The notes under the pieces: model-generated
Seen by the model: only the letters and a program-made list of their open reading frames with translations
Databases searched by the model: none
What the model was told of the DNA's origin: nothing
NCBI GenBank assembly: GCA_947495915.1
Contig: CANMAW010000007.1
Location: 62,001-126,000, forward strand
Direction of reading: 5' to 3'
Origin: Maribacter algarum (ex Lu et al. 2025) (nom. illeg.)
GTDB lineage: Bacteria > Bacteroidota > Bacteroidia > Flavobacteriales > Flavobacteriaceae
DNA length: 64,000 nt
Shown here: positions 3,213 through 60,632 of the stretch, one piece after another
How positions within the stretch are numbered: position 1 is the first letter of the stretch
How the letters are laid out: every line of letters starts with the position of its first letter
Made by a program: the position numbers and the translations under genes

Positions 3213-3220
3213 TATATTTG
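3213..3220 (+). promoter_or_regulatory. -7 promoter box (TATATTTG) for rpsO
   Basis: Exact TAnnTTTG box about 55 bases before the rpsO start; a weak TTTC lies at the -33 position (about 3196). Confidence 0.55.
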
Positions 3221-3224
3221 CAGC

Positions 3225-3243
3225 TTGATTGAAAATCAATCAA
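3225..3243 (+). promoter_or_regulatory. rpsO 5' leader hairpin
   Basis: Perfect 8-bp stem TTGATTGA / TCAATCAA with an AAA loop, located just after the predicted transcription start and 31 bases before the start codon. A similar stem occurs in front of pnp. A role in S15 autoregulation or mRNA stability is only inferred. Confidence 0.5.
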
Positions 3244-3274
3244 ATACATAATAATCATTTACAATAATATTAGC

Positions 3275-3544
3275 ATGTACTTAACTAAAGAAGTAAAAGC
3301 CGAGATTTTCAAAAAACACGGCGGAAAAGCAGAGAACACAGGTTCTACTGAAGGTCAAATCGCATTGTTCACACACCGTATCAATCATTTGACTGGTCAT
3401 TTGAAAAAAAACCATAAAGATTTCAATACCGAGCGATCTTTGGTAAAACTAGTAGGTAAGCGAAGAAGCTTACTTGATTATATGATAAAGAAAGATATTG
3501 TTAAATATCGTGAGCTTATCAAAGAATTAAATATTAGAAAATAA
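3275..3544 (+). CDS. rpsO: 30S ribosomal protein S15
   Basis: Primary 16S rRNA-binding protein of the small-subunit platform. 89 residues, exactly the bacterial length. Diagnostic segments: GSTEGQIALFTHRINHLTGHLKKNHKD and LVGKRRSLLDYMIKKD, which carry the rRNA-contacting His and Arg residues. ATG start agrees with the family N-terminus. Followed by an intrinsic terminator and then pnp, the same rpsO-pnp order as in E. coli. A promoter box and a leader hairpin precede it. Confidence 0.98.
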   Translation: MYLTKEVKAEIFKKHGGKAENTGSTEGQIALFTHRINHLTGHLKKNHKDFNTERSLVKLVGKRRSLLDYMIKKDIVKYRELIKELNIRK

Positions 3545-45754: not shown

Positions 45755-46837
45755 CTAAGCCTTCACAATTTTCTCTTGGTGATTGATTGATTCTTGGTGA
45801 ATTGCTTTGAACATACGAAGTACAAATTCTTCACTAAGTCCTTTTGTTTCTCCTTCTAAAATCATTTTTCCTAAGATTTCATTCCATCGGTTTGATTGTA
45901 AAACAGCTACGTTACGTGTTTTCTTCAATTTACCAATGCCGTCTGAAATCTTCATACGCTTTCCTAAAGTTTCAATAATTTGGTTATCAATAACATCAAT
46001 TTGAGCTCTTAAATTACTCAACTGACTATTGTATTCTGCTTCAGGATCAGATTCTTTTCTAATTTTTAAATCCGTCATGATTTGCACTAAACGCTCTGGC
46101 GTTACTTGCTGTGCAGCATCACTCCATGCATTATCAGGGTCAAAATGCGTTTCAATCATTAAACCATCAAAGTTCAAGTCTAATGCGGTTTGTGAAACAT
46201 CAAAAATCATATCACGCTTACCTGTAATATGTGAAGGATCATTGATTAACGGCAAATCAGGAAATTTGTTCTGAAACTCAATTGCCAATTGCCATTCTGG
46301 TATATTTCTATATTTTGACTTTTCATAAGTTGAAAAACCTCTATGAATTGCGCCCAATTTTTTAATTCCGGCAGTATGTAAACGCTCAATACCACCTAAC
46401 CATAAGGCCAAATCAGGATTTACCGGATTTTTTACCAAAACAATCTTATCAGTACCTGCCAATGCATCGGCTAGTTCTTGCATAATAAACGGACTCACTG
46501 TTGACCGAGCTCCAATCCATAATAAATCAATATCGTGCTCAAGTGCTAATTCTACATGTGCTCGATTAGCTACCTCTGTGGCTGTTTTCAATCCCGTTTC
46601 AGCTTTTACTTTTTGGAGCCATTTGAGACCCAACGCTCCTACACCCTCAAAATTTCCTGGGCGCGTTCTTGGTTTCCAGATTCCGGCGCGATAGTAATTC
46701 ACATCTGTATCTTTCAATTCATGCGCAATTCGCATAACTTGATCCTCGGTTTCTGCACTACATGGCCCTGCTATTACTAGTGGATGATCTAAACCCATAT
46801 CATCCAACCATGTTCTCATTTCTTTTGTATTCTCCAT
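45755..46837 (-). CDS. Bifunctional 3-deoxy-7-phosphoheptulonate synthase / chorismate mutase (type II)
   Basis: First enzyme of the shikimate pathway fused to the first step of Phe/Tyr branches. 360 residues from ATG 46837 (MENTKEMRTWLDDMGL); the frame extends to a TTG at 46885 but that part is not conserved. DAHP synthase (about 15-265): VIAGPCSAETEDQ, YRAGIWKPRTRPGNFEG, WIGARSTVSPFIMQ, LVKNPVNPDLALW, AIHRGFS and DPSHITGKRD, of the KDPG-aldolase-like (AroG/Bacillus) subfamily. AroQ chorismate mutase at the C-terminus (LRAQIDVIDNQIIETLGKRMKISDGIGKLKK). Bacillus has the mutase in front, Bacteroidota behind. Last gene of the pheA operon. Confidence 0.95.
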   Translation of the reverse strand: MENTKEMRTWLDDMGLDHPLVIAGPCSAETEDQVMRIAHELKDTDVNYYRAGIWKPRTRPGNFEGVGALGLKWLQKVKAETGLKTATEVANRAHVELALEHDIDLLWIGARSTVSPFIMQELADALAGTDKIVLVKNPVNPDLALWLGGIERLHTAGIKKLGAIHRGFSTYEKSKYRNIPEWQLAIEFQNKFPDLPLINDPSHITGKRDMIFDVSQTALDLNFDGLMIETHFDPDNAWSDAAQQVTPERLVQIMTDLKIRKESDPEAEYNSQLSNLRAQIDVIDNQIIETLGKRMKISDGIGKLKKTRNVAVLQSNRWNEILGKMILEGETKGLSEEFVLRMFKAIHQESINHQEKIVKA

Positions 46838-46992
46838 TACTTTGTTTTTGGGCGAAGCTTTTAAGGGTGAAGGGTAAAGGTTCAAATTTTCACCAATATT
46901 GACTTCTCTTATTTATAAATATTAAAATCGTTAATTGTTATTTGTACTAATATAATTTCTGCTTATTATATACTGGTCTATAATACCTTAGT

Positions 46993-47853
46993 CTATTTTT
47001 TATTCAAAGGTATTCCGTTCAATATTTCCTTTATGTTATTTGTCTCGTTCATTTCATTGTAAATACCTTCAAAATCATCATTTACCAACATTTGCTTAAA
47101 GGCTTCTAAATTTTGAATATACTCTTCTAGGGTTTCAACCACATTTGCTTTGTTCTGTTTAAAAATGGGCGCCCACATAGCTGGCGAACTTTTTGCCAAG
47201 CGAACAGTACTTTCAAAACCAGAACCAGCCATGTCAAAAATATCGCGTTCATTCTTCTCTTTCTCAATTACCGTCTTTCCTAACATAAAAGAGCTGATGT
47301 GTGACAAATGAGATACATAAGCGATGTGCTTATCGTGCGCCTCAGGATTCATATAACGAATGCGCATCCCCATTTTTTGAAAAAGTTCTAATGCTTTTTC
47401 CTGTAATTTAAAGGCTGTCTTTTCAACTTCACAAATAATATTTGTTTTACCTTCATACAAACCTTCTATTGCAGCCGAAGGTCCAGAAAATTCAGTACCT
47501 GCAATGGGATGACATGCTAAATAATTTCTTCTTTTCGGATGATCTTCTAACTGCTGACAAATCAATTTTTTAGTTGACCCACCATCAAAGACAACACAAT
47601 TATCATTTACTGCATCAAGAATTAATGGAAGCTCTGCTACTAAAACATCAACCGGAATTGCAACTATTACCATATCTGCAATATTCAAGTCTTCATACGT
47701 TGCTTGAGCATCTATCAGATTTAAAGCTAAAGCTTCATCTAAATGTTTTGCGTTGGCATCAATACCATAAATCTTAGATTCAGCAGAAATACGCTTAATA
47801 TCTCTTGCGAATGAACCTCCAATTAACCCAATACCGACTATAAATACGTTCAT
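46993..47853 (-). CDS. tyrA: Prephenate dehydrogenase
   Basis: NAD(P)-dependent oxidative decarboxylation of prephenate to 4-hydroxyphenylpyruvate for Tyr synthesis. 286 residues. Rossmann motif FIVGIGLIGGSFARDIK, IVAIPVDVLVAELP, HPIAGTEFSGPSAAIEGLYEGK (substrate His), HDKHIAYVSHLSHISSFML and GSGFESTVRLAKSSPAMWAPIF. No ACT domain, so end-product control probably acts on transcription or PheA. A 155-base AT-rich gap separates it from the DAHP synthase gene, where a further promoter is possible. Confidence 0.96.
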   Translation of the reverse strand: MNVFIVGIGLIGGSFARDIKRISAESKIYGIDANAKHLDEALALNLIDAQATYEDLNIADMVIVAIPVDVLVAELPLILDAVNDNCVVFDGGSTKKLICQQLEDHPKRRNYLACHPIAGTEFSGPSAAIEGLYEGKTNIICEVEKTAFKLQEKALELFQKMGMRIRYMNPEAHDKHIAYVSHLSHISSFMLGKTVIEKEKNERDIFDMAGSGFESTVRLAKSSPAMWAPIFKQNKANVVETLEEYIQNLEAFKQMLVNDDFEGIYNEMNETNNIKEILNGIPLNKK

Positions 47854-47854
47854 A

Positions 47855-49000
47855 CTAAAATCTATCTATTGCTTCTTGAATTTTGGCTTCATTAACACAG
47901 AGTGAAAAACGAATGTAACCCTCACCATTACTACCAAAAATGGTACCCGGAGTGATAAAAATATCTTTGTCATATAAGATATCGTCTATAAATTTTTCCG
48001 CTGATGGTACACCATACGGCAACTTGGCCCATACAAACATACCAACGGATGAAGAATCATAAGTACAGCCTAATTTTTTTACCAATTTCAACATCAATTC
48101 TTTTCGTGAGGCATATACTTCATTTAAGTTATCAAACCATTTTTGCGAACTTTCTAATGCTGCGATTGCACCTTTTTGTATTCCGTAAAACATACCAGAG
48201 TCCATATTACTTTTCACTTTTAAAATCGAATTAATATGACTTTCATTTCCTAAAACCATACCTACACGCCAACCTGCCATATTAAAAGTTTTACTTAGCG
48301 AATTTAACTCTAGAGCTATTTCTTTAGCCCCATCAATATTTAAAATACTTCTAGGGTTTGTATTTAAAACAAAGCTATACGGGTTATCATTGATCAATAG
48401 AATTTCATTACGCTTAGCAAAATCAATGAGTTTTTCAAACTGTGTTGTAGAAGCTGTAGCCCCTGTCGGCATGTGCGGATAACTTAACCACATCAATTTA
48501 ACTTTAGACAAATCTTCTTGTTCTAGATATTCTAAATCAGGAAACCACCCTTTATCCTCTGTCAAATCATAATAATGAGGTACCGCACCAACTAATTTAC
48601 TGACCGAAGTATATGTCGGATACCCAGGATTCGGTATTAAAACTTCATCACCAGCATTTAAAAAAGCCATGCTAATATGCATAATGCCTTCTTTCGAACC
48701 CATAAGCGGTAAAATTTCAGAAGCACTATCTAATTGCACTTCAAATTTTGCAGTATAAAATGCGGCTATGGCCTCTCGTAATTCAGGTAAACCTTGATAG
48801 CTTTGATATTGATGAGCCCCTTTGTCATTAACGGCATTTTGAATTGCTTTAATAACATTTTCAGATGGCGCCAAATCAGGACTACCAATACCCATATTAA
48901 TAATAGGCCTGCCTTTCGCTAATAGTTCGCGAACTTCTCTTAACTTTTTAGAAAAGTAATATTCTTTTACCGTTTTAAGTCTATCAGCAGTTTGTATCAT
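47855..49000 (-). CDS. Class I/II aminotransferase, likely aromatic amino acid aminotransferase
   Basis: PLP-dependent enzyme. 381 residues. Landmarks: INMGIGSPDLAPSENVIKA, GLPELREAIAAFY, PNPGYPTYTSVSKLVGA, LMWLSYPHMPTGATA (an unusual Pro-His-Met replacing the common PxNPTG), and the PLP-Lys segment NSLSKTFNMAGWRVGMVLG with RFSL near the end. Position between pheA and tyrA implies phenylpyruvate and 4-hydroxyphenylpyruvate as substrates, making the last step of Phe and Tyr synthesis; specificity for other keto acids cannot be excluded. ATG overlaps the pheA stop by four bases; 1-base gap to tyrA. Confidence 0.92.
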   Translation of the reverse strand: MIQTADRLKTVKEYYFSKKLREVRELLAKGRPIINMGIGSPDLAPSENVIKAIQNAVNDKGAHQYQSYQGLPELREAIAAFYTAKFEVQLDSASEILPLMGSKEGIMHISMAFLNAGDEVLIPNPGYPTYTSVSKLVGAVPHYYDLTEDKGWFPDLEYLEQEDLSKVKLMWLSYPHMPTGATASTTQFEKLIDFAKRNEILLINDNPYSFVLNTNPRSILNIDGAKEIALELNSLSKTFNMAGWRVGMVLGNESHINSILKVKSNMDSGMFYGIQKGAIAALESSQKWFDNLNEVYASRKELMLKLVKKLGCTYDSSSVGMFVWAKLPYGVPSAEKFIDDILYDKDIFITPGTIFGSNGEGYIRFSLCVNEAKIQEAIDRF

Positions 49001-49836
49001 ACTCGGGCATTTTTATATTCACCTAATACTTTAAAGTCTTCAGACATGATGTTCAACAATGATTTTGCCTTTTCAAAATTAGAATAACCATCAAATGTTA
49101 TATCAACAAAAAAGGCATATTTCCATGGGCTCTCAATTACTGGCAGACTTTGAATTTTTGTTAAGTTCAAATTGCAATCGCTCATAACATTAAGCATAGC
49201 TGCCAAACTACCTCGTTTATGATCGGTTAAAAAACGAATTGATGCTTTATTAATTTGTGCTTTAGGTAACTCCTTATTTTTTGTTTTTACAATGATAAAT
49301 CGGGTAGCATTATTCTTGATTGTCTGAATGTCTTTTGCTACGATGTTCAACCCATATAATTCTGCAGCAACATTAGGCGCAATTGCTGCAACATGTTTCA
49401 ATTGTTGCTTTTGAATTCGTTGGGCGGTCTCTGCCGTATCAACATCTTCAACCAATTTGATTTCAGGATAATCTTTAAAAAATTCTTTGCATTGCAACAA
49501 GGCCATTGGGTGTGAGCGCACCTCCTTAATATCTGAAATGTTTTGACCTGCTAATACCATTAAATTATGATGAATATTTAAATAATACTCTCCAATAATG
49601 TGCAATTTATTATGATAAATTAGATTGTAATTTGGTATAATTGAACCTGCAATTGAATTTTCAATTGCCATAACGCCCTTATCTGCTTCCCCATTTAAAA
49701 GCTTATCAACCAAACTATCAAATGACAAACATTCAACAAGTTCAATAGCATCTCCATAATAGTCTTTAGCTACTTGATGGTGATTTGAACCTTGAATACC
49801 TTGTATTGCTATTTTAAATTTCATTTTAAATTTCAT
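48997..49836 (-). CDS. pheA: Prephenate dehydratase
   Basis: Converts prephenate to phenylpyruvate. 279 residues from ATG 49836. PDT domain: KIAIQGIQGSNHHQVAKDYYG, GVMAIENSIAGSIIPNY, EVRSHPMALLQCKEFF and NATRFIIVKT (Thr-Arg-Phe active site). A C-terminal ACT domain has RGSLAAMLNVMSDCNLNLTKIQSLPVIESPWKYAFFVD, so Phe feedback is expected. The start is ambiguous: ATGAAATTTAAA is tandemly duplicated, so the second ATG (49824) also fits. The start codon is four bases behind the U-tract of an attenuator. First structural gene of a four-gene aromatic operon. Confidence 0.95.
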   Translation of the reverse strand: MKFKMKFKIAIQGIQGSNHHQVAKDYYGDAIELVECLSFDSLVDKLLNGEADKGVMAIENSIAGSIIPNYNLIYHNKLHIIGEYYLNIHHNLMVLAGQNISDIKEVRSHPMALLQCKEFFKDYPEIKLVEDVDTAETAQRIQKQQLKHVAAIAPNVAAELYGLNIVAKDIQTIKNNATRFIIVKTKNKELPKAQINKASIRFLTDHKRGSLAAMLNVMSDCNLNLTKIQSLPVIESPWKYAFFVDITFDGYSNFEKAKSLLNIMSEDFKVLGEYKNARV

Positions 49837-49839
49837 CAC

Positions 49840-49869
49840 AAAAAAAGTCCTGCTTTTCGCAGGACTTTT
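49840..49869 (-). terminator. Attenuator terminator of the pheA operon
   Basis: Minus strand: AAAAGTCCTGC (49869-49859) pairs perfectly with GCAGGACTTTT (49853-49843), loop GAAAA; the U-tract (T7) runs to 49840. The pheA ATG starts at 49836. A terminator in front of, not behind, an operon is a hallmark of attenuation. Its left arm can also pair with the region just behind the leader peptide stop (TAGGGCT 49906-49900 with AGTCCTG 49866-49860, two G-U pairs). Confidence 0.88.
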
Positions 49870-49903
49870 ATATTATATTTAACTTGAATATACTACAACA
49901 GCC

Positions 49904-49963
49904 CTAGCTTCTTAAAAAAAAGAAGTAGAAAAAGAATCTGTTATAAAAATATTGCTTCGTCAT
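49904..49963 (-). CDS. Phe/Tyr-rich leader peptide of the pheA operon (attenuator)
   Basis: 19-residue ORF, MTKQYFYNRFFFYFFFLRS then TAG: seven Phe (four as TTT, three TTC) and three Tyr codons, with the FFFYFFF block right before the end. It lies between a possible promoter and the attenuator terminator, about 70 bases before pheA. It closely resembles the E. coli pheA leader peptide in design (Phe-run before a terminator), although there is no sequence homology to expect. When charged tRNA-Phe is scarce, a ribosome stalled in the run would leave the stop-codon region free to form an antiterminator. It is too short for usual gene calling. Mechanism inferred; translation unproven. Confidence 0.85.
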   Translation of the reverse strand: MTKQYFYNRFFFYFFFLRS

Positions 49964-49982: not shown

Positions 49983-49990
49983 CTAAAGTA
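49983..49990 (-). promoter_or_regulatory. Possible -7 box (TACTTTAG) for the pheA operon
   Basis: Minus-strand TACTTTAG matches TAnnTTTG at seven of eight positions, 20 bases before the leader ATG. No good -33 TTTG found. Confidence 0.35.
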
Positions 49991-60471: not shown

Positions 60472-60632
60472 GGTTATCTGTCTTAATTTACTGTAGAGAA
60501 ACCTCAACAGTACCTGAGAATCAGGATTAAGATAGAATGTAGCACCTTCTTAAAGCCCGACGAGTATCAGGTTCATTTAAGGGTTGCTAAGGCTTCATTG
60601 GGTCTAATCCCTCCACCTTTCTTGATAACTAT
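60472..60632 (-). promoter_or_regulatory. SAM-I (S-box) riboswitch of the metH-metF operon
   Basis: Minus-strand aptamer core: GTTATCAAGAAAGGTGGAG and GGGATTAGACCCAATGAAG, then CCTTAGCAACC and GGTGCTACATTC are the SAM-I consensus in correct order. P1 is closed by GTTATC (60629-60624) with GATAAC (60478-60473). A long arm between (TCTATCTTAAT ... ATTAAGACAGA) fits P4. The 50 bases between aptamer and terminator include sequences that may form the antiterminator. High SAM should stop transcription before metH. Confidence 0.92.

Follow-up and report, generated by a model that had tools for sequence, protein, structure and literature searches.

The phenylalanine attenuator of Escherichia coli, pheL, works through mutually exclusive RNA helices, and in the E. 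coli region a Phe-rich leader open reading frame (ORF) is followed by a GC-rich hairpin with a T-run and then by pheA. For Bacteroidetes, the leader element Bacteroid-trp (RF01692) is listed in PMC2864571 and has been placed before the trp operon of Flavobacterium psychrophilum (PMC6414381), and short ORFs reminiscent of leader peptides have been noted in Bacteroides 5' untranslated regions (PMC7366714). Here, we analyse an element in front of the prephenate dehydratase gene pheA in a window of 64,000 nucleotides (nt) from Maribacter algarum (contig CANMAW010000007.1; coordinates are positions in this window, and element and operon are on the minus strand), which, judged from sequence comparison, is very probably a ribosome-mediated transcription attenuator. 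The order of leader, hairpin and pheA is that of E. coli, but the pheL leader has Phe codons and neither Tyr nor Trp codons, whereas the window leader combines Phe and Tyr codons, and the operon, unlike pheL-pheA, adds tyrA and a DAHP synthase gene. Bacteroid-trp is of the same phylum and the same kind of element, but differs in operon and control codons.

That a Phe attenuator had not been described in this phylum, as the sequence-only reading held, is not quite right. Table 7 of PMC1173090 (2005), drawing on a database of predicted attenuators, gives a putative attenuator before pheA > hisHb > aroAIbeta-aroQ > tyrA of Bacteroides thetaiotaomicron, the same operon type in the same phylum, with the word 'leader' absent from the main text. 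In F. psychrophilum and other Flavobacteriaceae, a conserved 5' element without Rfam hit has been reported upstream of pheA (PMC9723704, 2021), together with a 5' element of hisG and 'strong clues' for leader-peptide attenuation of amino-acid operons; the section naming the pheA element gives no leader sequence, segments, control codons or spread beyond the family. In the portions of the literature covered by our search, no account of leader sequence, segments or wider spread was found, and an earlier prediction is possible. This kind of attenuator is long known and its presence in the phylum is partly reported; new are the anatomy, the spread and the aromatic mixture.

At the locus are found an ORF rich in codons for the products of the operon, a terminator (segments 3:4) before the first gene, an antiterminator (2:3) exclusive with it, which is weak for the arm of the window, and a protector helix (1:2) reaching into the ORF. 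The leader MTKQYFYNRFFFYFFFLRS has 19 codons, of which 10 encode Phe or Tyr, and the 5' arm of the terminator has its mirror in a segment at the ORF end. The terminator is a stem of 11 base pairs, AAAAGTCCTGC (49869-49859) with GCAGGACTTTT (49853-49843) around the loop GAAAA, with seven T at 49846-49840, four of which lie inside the stem, and pheA starts directly behind it with GTG 49839, ATG 49836 or ATG 49824. The ORF, the stem with its T-run and the adjoining pheA had all been correctly located by the sequence-only reading. Several pheA starts are possible because the 12 bases ATGAAATTTAAA are present twice in tandem at the pheA start (49813-49836, minus strand). The terminator folds with -15.6 kcal/mol (z = -5.7) and the 2:3 region, from TAGGGCT to AGTCCTGCG, with -13.2 kcal/mol (z = -4.2); an equally aromatic short ORF (score 8) arose in 3 of 2000 dinucleotide shuffles of the upstream region of the window. 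The motif TAnnTTnG, to be compared with the Bacteroidota -7 consensus TAnnTTTG quoted in PMC9723704, precedes the leader start by at most 80 nt in 139 of 149 cases, and 89 of 745 gene-body windows contain it.

Conservation of the leader was followed in a family sample, in which 130 of 149 genomes, nearly all of different genera, gave a prephenate dehydratase match; these 130 matches (window included) and eight family members from a phylum sample make up 138 family loci. A short ORF with at least seven Phe, Tyr or Trp in 10 residues, at most 600 nt upstream of pheA, is present at 131 of the 138 loci, and at 133 if six residues suffice, which bears out the expectation that a short aromatic ORF is conserved in Flavobacteriaceae. 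On the opposite strand, two of 138 loci reach seven in ten, dinucleotide shuffles do so in 14/1380 (97/1380 at six in ten), and inside pheA the aromatic ORF occurs in 0/110. Since the ORF is conserved among relatives, a chance origin from T-rich sequence is untenable, and it is ruled out by the three controls as well. A fifth family locus below six in ten (G048) is cut by a contig end, with a truncated leader and terminator visible by eye. Within the genus, 11 of 14 genomes have a PheA match and all ten with a complete upstream region, window included, have the leader (a truncated gene, L209, is omitted from the count); among these ten are the 8/8 genus members further to the 138 family loci.

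Outside the family, loci were searched at a threshold of at least six in ten and up to 700 nt upstream, with some flanks cut (L224, 279 nt) and no shuffle control. Other families of the same class show the ORF in 23 of 33 pheA loci (12/14 and 11/19, with the matching genome G313 left out of the latter), L228 having a leader with eight aromatic residues in ten and, as judged by eye, a terminator. Of 40 loci from the other classes of the phylum, fetched out of 89 genomes with a match, 3 have it; the PheA of these three are 41-45% identical to the query and the remaining 37 are 31-37% identical. Another family of the same order gave 0/2. At the leaderless locus L059 (G013), a stretch of about 110 nt that includes a CCCGCC..GGCGGG-like hairpin is seen by eye three times upstream of pheA, and the attenuator may have been displaced by this repeat element. 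Locus L168 (G127) likewise has no leader and, by eye, shows repeats of short hairpins such as GACCTGTTAGGTTTC / AAACCTGATAGGTC upstream of pheA. In L123 and L124 (G222, G255), the leader is absent and pheA lies close behind an upstream ORF that resembles aroA by eye, so that control may lie further upstream.

The aromatic codons are kept as a class. In 149 leaders (at least six in ten, up to 700 nt), Phe and Tyr occur in all and Trp in 94 (90/134 in the family, 4/15 elsewhere), with no Trp codons in the leaders of ten genus members, window included. Columns picked as aromatic stay so in 145 of 147 cells (7 columns) in the group nearest the window and in 298 of 310 (8 columns) in a second group, with TTT, TTC, TAT, TAC and TGG interchanging, an indirect sign that the leader may be translated; the seventh codon of the nearest group (n = 21) is Trp in 14, Tyr in five and Phe in two leaders. 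The Phe/Tyr mixture of the sequence-only reading accordingly stands for all leaders, but it omitted Trp, which many relatives have too.

Support for the terminator helix 3:4 is very strong at the level of sequence. It was found behind the ORF in 107 of the first 110 family loci, and of the three exceptions two have no leader and the other (L077) has a hairpin and T-run missed by the script but seen by eye; outside the family, 12 of 15 leaders checked have a terminator, nine of these with a TCCCG core. Compensatory pairing, proposed as a check for the stem, is evident in 107 aligned leaders (alignment A1), where its eight pairs are 98.0% standard, seven of them with two-sided changes, and on each of five measures all 500 shuffles fall short.

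For the antiterminator 2:3, exact hexamers were counted in an interval defined by nothing but its distance to the last aromatic codon. Where the arm is GTCCCG, CGGGAC occurs in 15/26 loci and CGAGAC in 0/26, and where it is GTCTCG, CGAGAC occurs in 27/60 (42 if one G-U is allowed) and CGGGAC in 1/60. In the 21 leaders nearest the window, 91.0% of positions pair vs 16.9-56.8% when the arms are slid, and percentage and covariation score are each reached by 1/500 shuffles; on all 107 leaders, with the offset of the second group applied, 79.7% pair. Pairing scores average 16.9 for the own arms, 12.7 for arms swapped between unlike loci and 10.5 for shuffled segments. Compensatory changes thus accompany the TAGGGCT/AGTCCTG-type pairing among relatives, weakly for the arm type of the window, and the support for a 2:3 helix, as far as such comparisons go, is good.

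The candidate protector 1:2 joins the end of the ORF to segment 1, which runs from shortly ahead of the aromatic block into its beginning; in the window, folding of the complete leader pairs TTATAACAG of segment 1 with CTGTTGTAG of segment 2. In a first group of 21 sequences (for example CTGGAACGG with CTGTTCTAG), 91.2% are paired vs 39.0-53.8% when slid, and the 11 cells changed on both sides are reached by 1/500 shuffles; in another group of 40, TATACATAT with GTATGTATA is 94.7% paired vs 4.7-73.9%. A wider test gave 16.06 for own, 13.10 for shuffled heads and 13.89 for heads swapped between loci; in a free search of the window itself, the best-scoring stretch was found elsewhere, around the start codon. 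The idea of an element without 1:2 helix that is ON by default was overturned by the fold, the wider test and the pair counts. Comparative support for 1:2 is moderate; with it besides 2:3 and 3:4, the element shows the complete anatomy of an attenuator with four segments, which corrects the sequence-only reading.

With the best match to the arm taken as segment 2, 102 of 107 loci have it starting 7-14 nt past the last aromatic codon (shuffled segments scoring at least 14: 43 of 179), which is about where the leading edge of a stalled ribosome lies. The position of segment 2 relative to the stop codon is more variable, though in 104 of 107 loci within -22 to +13 nt of the end of the stop, where a terminating ribosome, with the footprint generally attributed to it, would cover it.

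The leader-peptide attenuation proposed from the window alone is supported by the conserved ORF and by the comparisons of terminator and antiterminator, and from this anatomy we infer translation of the leader, stalling, termination in vivo and a response to amino acids as follows. RNA polymerase would start about 10-20 nt upstream of the leader ORF, as suggested by the promoter motif, with a ribosome behind it. A shortage of charged tRNA-Phe or tRNA-Tyr would stall the ribosome in the aromatic codons, so that it covers segment 1 but leaves segment 2 free, because the latter begins 7-14 nt past the last of them; segments 2 and 3 would pair, the terminator would not form and pheA, aminotransferase, tyrA and DAHP synthase/chorismate mutase would be transcribed. 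With aromatic amino acids plentiful, the ribosome would reach the stop codon and occupy segment 2, allowing the 3:4 terminator to form, and without translation 1:2 would form, making termination the default.

The helices alone do not identify what reads them, and an RNA-binding protein or a ligand acting on segments 1-3 of the same switch could take the place of the stalled ribosome, the more so as the window holds other cis-regulatory RNAs (an S15 leader and a SAM riboswitch). Such a reader is very unlikely, as segment 2 keeps its distance from the last aromatic codon while its distance from the stop varies, the aromatic identity of the codons is preserved, and at the element no riboswitch reaches its Rfam gathering score and no T-box is listed. 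That the hairpin is a plain terminator of upstream or antisense transcription, preceded by a chance T-rich tract and with the pheA promoter behind it, is hardly credible. Intergenic sequence is AT-rich, a T-rich tract reads as Phe codons and shuffles do yield such ORFs at the frequencies given above, but the ORF is kept across the family, Tyr and Trp codons substitute for Phe in the same columns, and 2:3 and 1:2 covary; moreover, at 106 of 107 loci the PheA match begins just 4-109 nt behind the stem (332 nt in L015), and four leader-bearing loci (L137, L138, L139, L141) have an upstream G+C of 0.49-0.57, so AT-richness is not the reason for the ORF. Equally hard to credit is a functional small hydrophobic protein whose level the hairpins merely set. 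Its amino acid composition is indeed kept across the whole family, but the residues outside the aromatic block vary by group with the RNA pairing (tails GTGLL or GTGLF in one group, NETLYV in the other), which therefore seems to set them rather than peptide function, and the tail of the window peptide was lost by frameshift with the RNA spacing intact.

Attenuation by a stalled ribosome also has observations that weigh against it. Four of the 138 family loci (G013, G023, G127 and G035, the last with 367 nt upstream only) are without the ORF, and 10 of the 33 loci in other families of the class fall below the threshold of six in ten. The arm type of the window, GTCCTG, is rarely matched, with CAGGAC in 1/13 (3/13 with one G-U) and CGGGAC in 1/13, eight of 107 loci have other arms and were set apart (CGGGAC in two), and the 2:3 core of the window includes two G-U pairs. 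In the 21 nearest leaders, only four 2:3 cells are changed on both sides and 497 of 500 shuffles show more pair types; for all 107 leaders, 84/500 shuffles have at least as many changed pairs. Alignment A1 has an offset of one column between its two main groups (CGGGAC in columns 80-85, CGAGAC in 81-86), so that no single antiterminator structure fits it, which was handled by counting the nearest group separately, by applying the second offset to A1 and by the distance-only test. For 1:2, the pair types of the first group are reached by 122/500 shuffles, and a first, narrower test of the ORF head against the narrow core of segment 2 was negative (9.85 vs 10.33 for shuffles). All helix structures were derived from the same sequences, and shuffles leave relatedness in place. 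Compared with its sister L202, the window leader lacks 1 nt and differs at a neighbouring base just before AGGGCT, and therefore TAG falls on the first base of segment 2 and the peptide ends at 19 residues; the leaders of nine other genus members have 22 or 23. With 9 nt from aromatic block to segment 2, inside the common range, the window copy is read as a shortened but presumably working version, with decay as the alternative.

Features of the probable attenuator and the operon in the window
Feature	Positions	Strand	Basis or remark
Likely -7 promoter element TACTTTAG	49983..49990	-	Bacteroidota type TAnnTTTG; consensus motif only
Leader ORF, peptide MTKQYFYNRFFFYFFFLRS	49904..49963	-	ATG at 49963, stop TAG ending 49904
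Segment 1 (TTATAACAGATTC)	49934..49946	-	Fold of whole leader and homologous columns in relatives
Control codons FFFYFFF, codons 10-16	49916..49936	-	More aromatic codons at 5-7
Segment 2 (TAGGGCTGTTGTAG)	49893..49906	-	Starts at stop codon; pairing partner segment 1 or 3
Segment 3 (AAAAGTCCTGC)	49859..49869	-	Terminator 5' arm and antiterminator 3' arm
Segment 4 and T-run (GCAGGACTTTTTTT)	49840..49853	-	Terminator 3' arm
pheA, prephenate dehydratase	48997..49839	-	ORF resemblance; above Pfam cut-off
Aminotransferase	47855..49000	-	4-nt overlap with pheA
tyrA, prephenate dehydrogenase	46993..47853	-	Above NCBIfam curated cut-off
DAHP synthase/chorismate mutase	45755..46885	-	DAHP synthase domain above Pfam cut-off

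The ORF resemblances agree with the operon named in the sequence-only reading, and its function fits the control codons of the leader. Among its ORFs, prephenate dehydrogenase alone reaches the curated cut-off of an NCBIfam model; 108 of 110 family loci have an aminotransferase homologue behind pheA in the same orientation. The DAHP synthase of the operon is the sole one found in the genome, where PF01474 is without a match and the other protein matched by PF00793 is a KDO8P synthase. Since Trp codons occur in many relatives, the signal may be aromatic supply in general. As the operon has the only DAHP synthase found, and so would gate the supply of all three amino acids, the leader could, as a tentative suggestion that we hold somewhat less likely than not, be a joint gauge of Phe, Tyr and, in about two thirds of family leaders, Trp.

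At Rfam gathering scores, the element has no match. A permissive search with 251 bases gave 27.2 bits for Phe_leader (RF01859), whose gathering score is 55 (E. coli control 132.3), as the second of the sub-threshold matches behind an unrelated small RNA family at 28.2 bits. Membership in Phe_leader was rejected on this score, as was membership in Bacteroid-trp (gathering score 49), which is unlisted at the element up to E = 10; the Rfam match lists for the element contain no T-box family. A phage origin was also dismissed, as 401 bases gave no match in a phage collection. Elsewhere in the window, an S15-Flavobacteria ribosomal protein leader (3213-3277, plus strand) and a SAM riboswitch (60508-60631, minus strand) score above gathering. 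The same genome carries a Bacteroid-trp element with leader MKTRNSNTWWWNNSRQSS (L140, G000:C10:41628-41742, plus strand; 54.6 bits) and, upstream of hisG (L210, G000:C6:268805, plus strand), a likely His leader MRNTNTHHHLLTGYQAR with a hairpin AAACCCGTTTGA...TCAAACGGGTTT behind it, bringing its likely leader-peptide attenuators to three (phe, his and Bacteroid-trp).

For a phylum with little-described amino-acid regulation, the element offers a testable switch, built of four segments and with more than 130 homologues, for the synthesis of Phe and Tyr, and it would supply a family missing from Rfam. Bacteria of this group are described as without Shine-Dalgarno sequences (PMC9723704). The element indicates classical attenuation with three exclusive helices in such bacteria, and its mixed Phe, Tyr and Trp codons prompt one to ask whether a single leader can report on several amino acids simultaneously. 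In E. coli, the counterparts are TyrR, TrpR and three feedback-sensitive isoenzymes; if the joint gauge is true, Bacteroidota would control entry into the aromatic pathway through ribosomes that stall at any aromatic codon.
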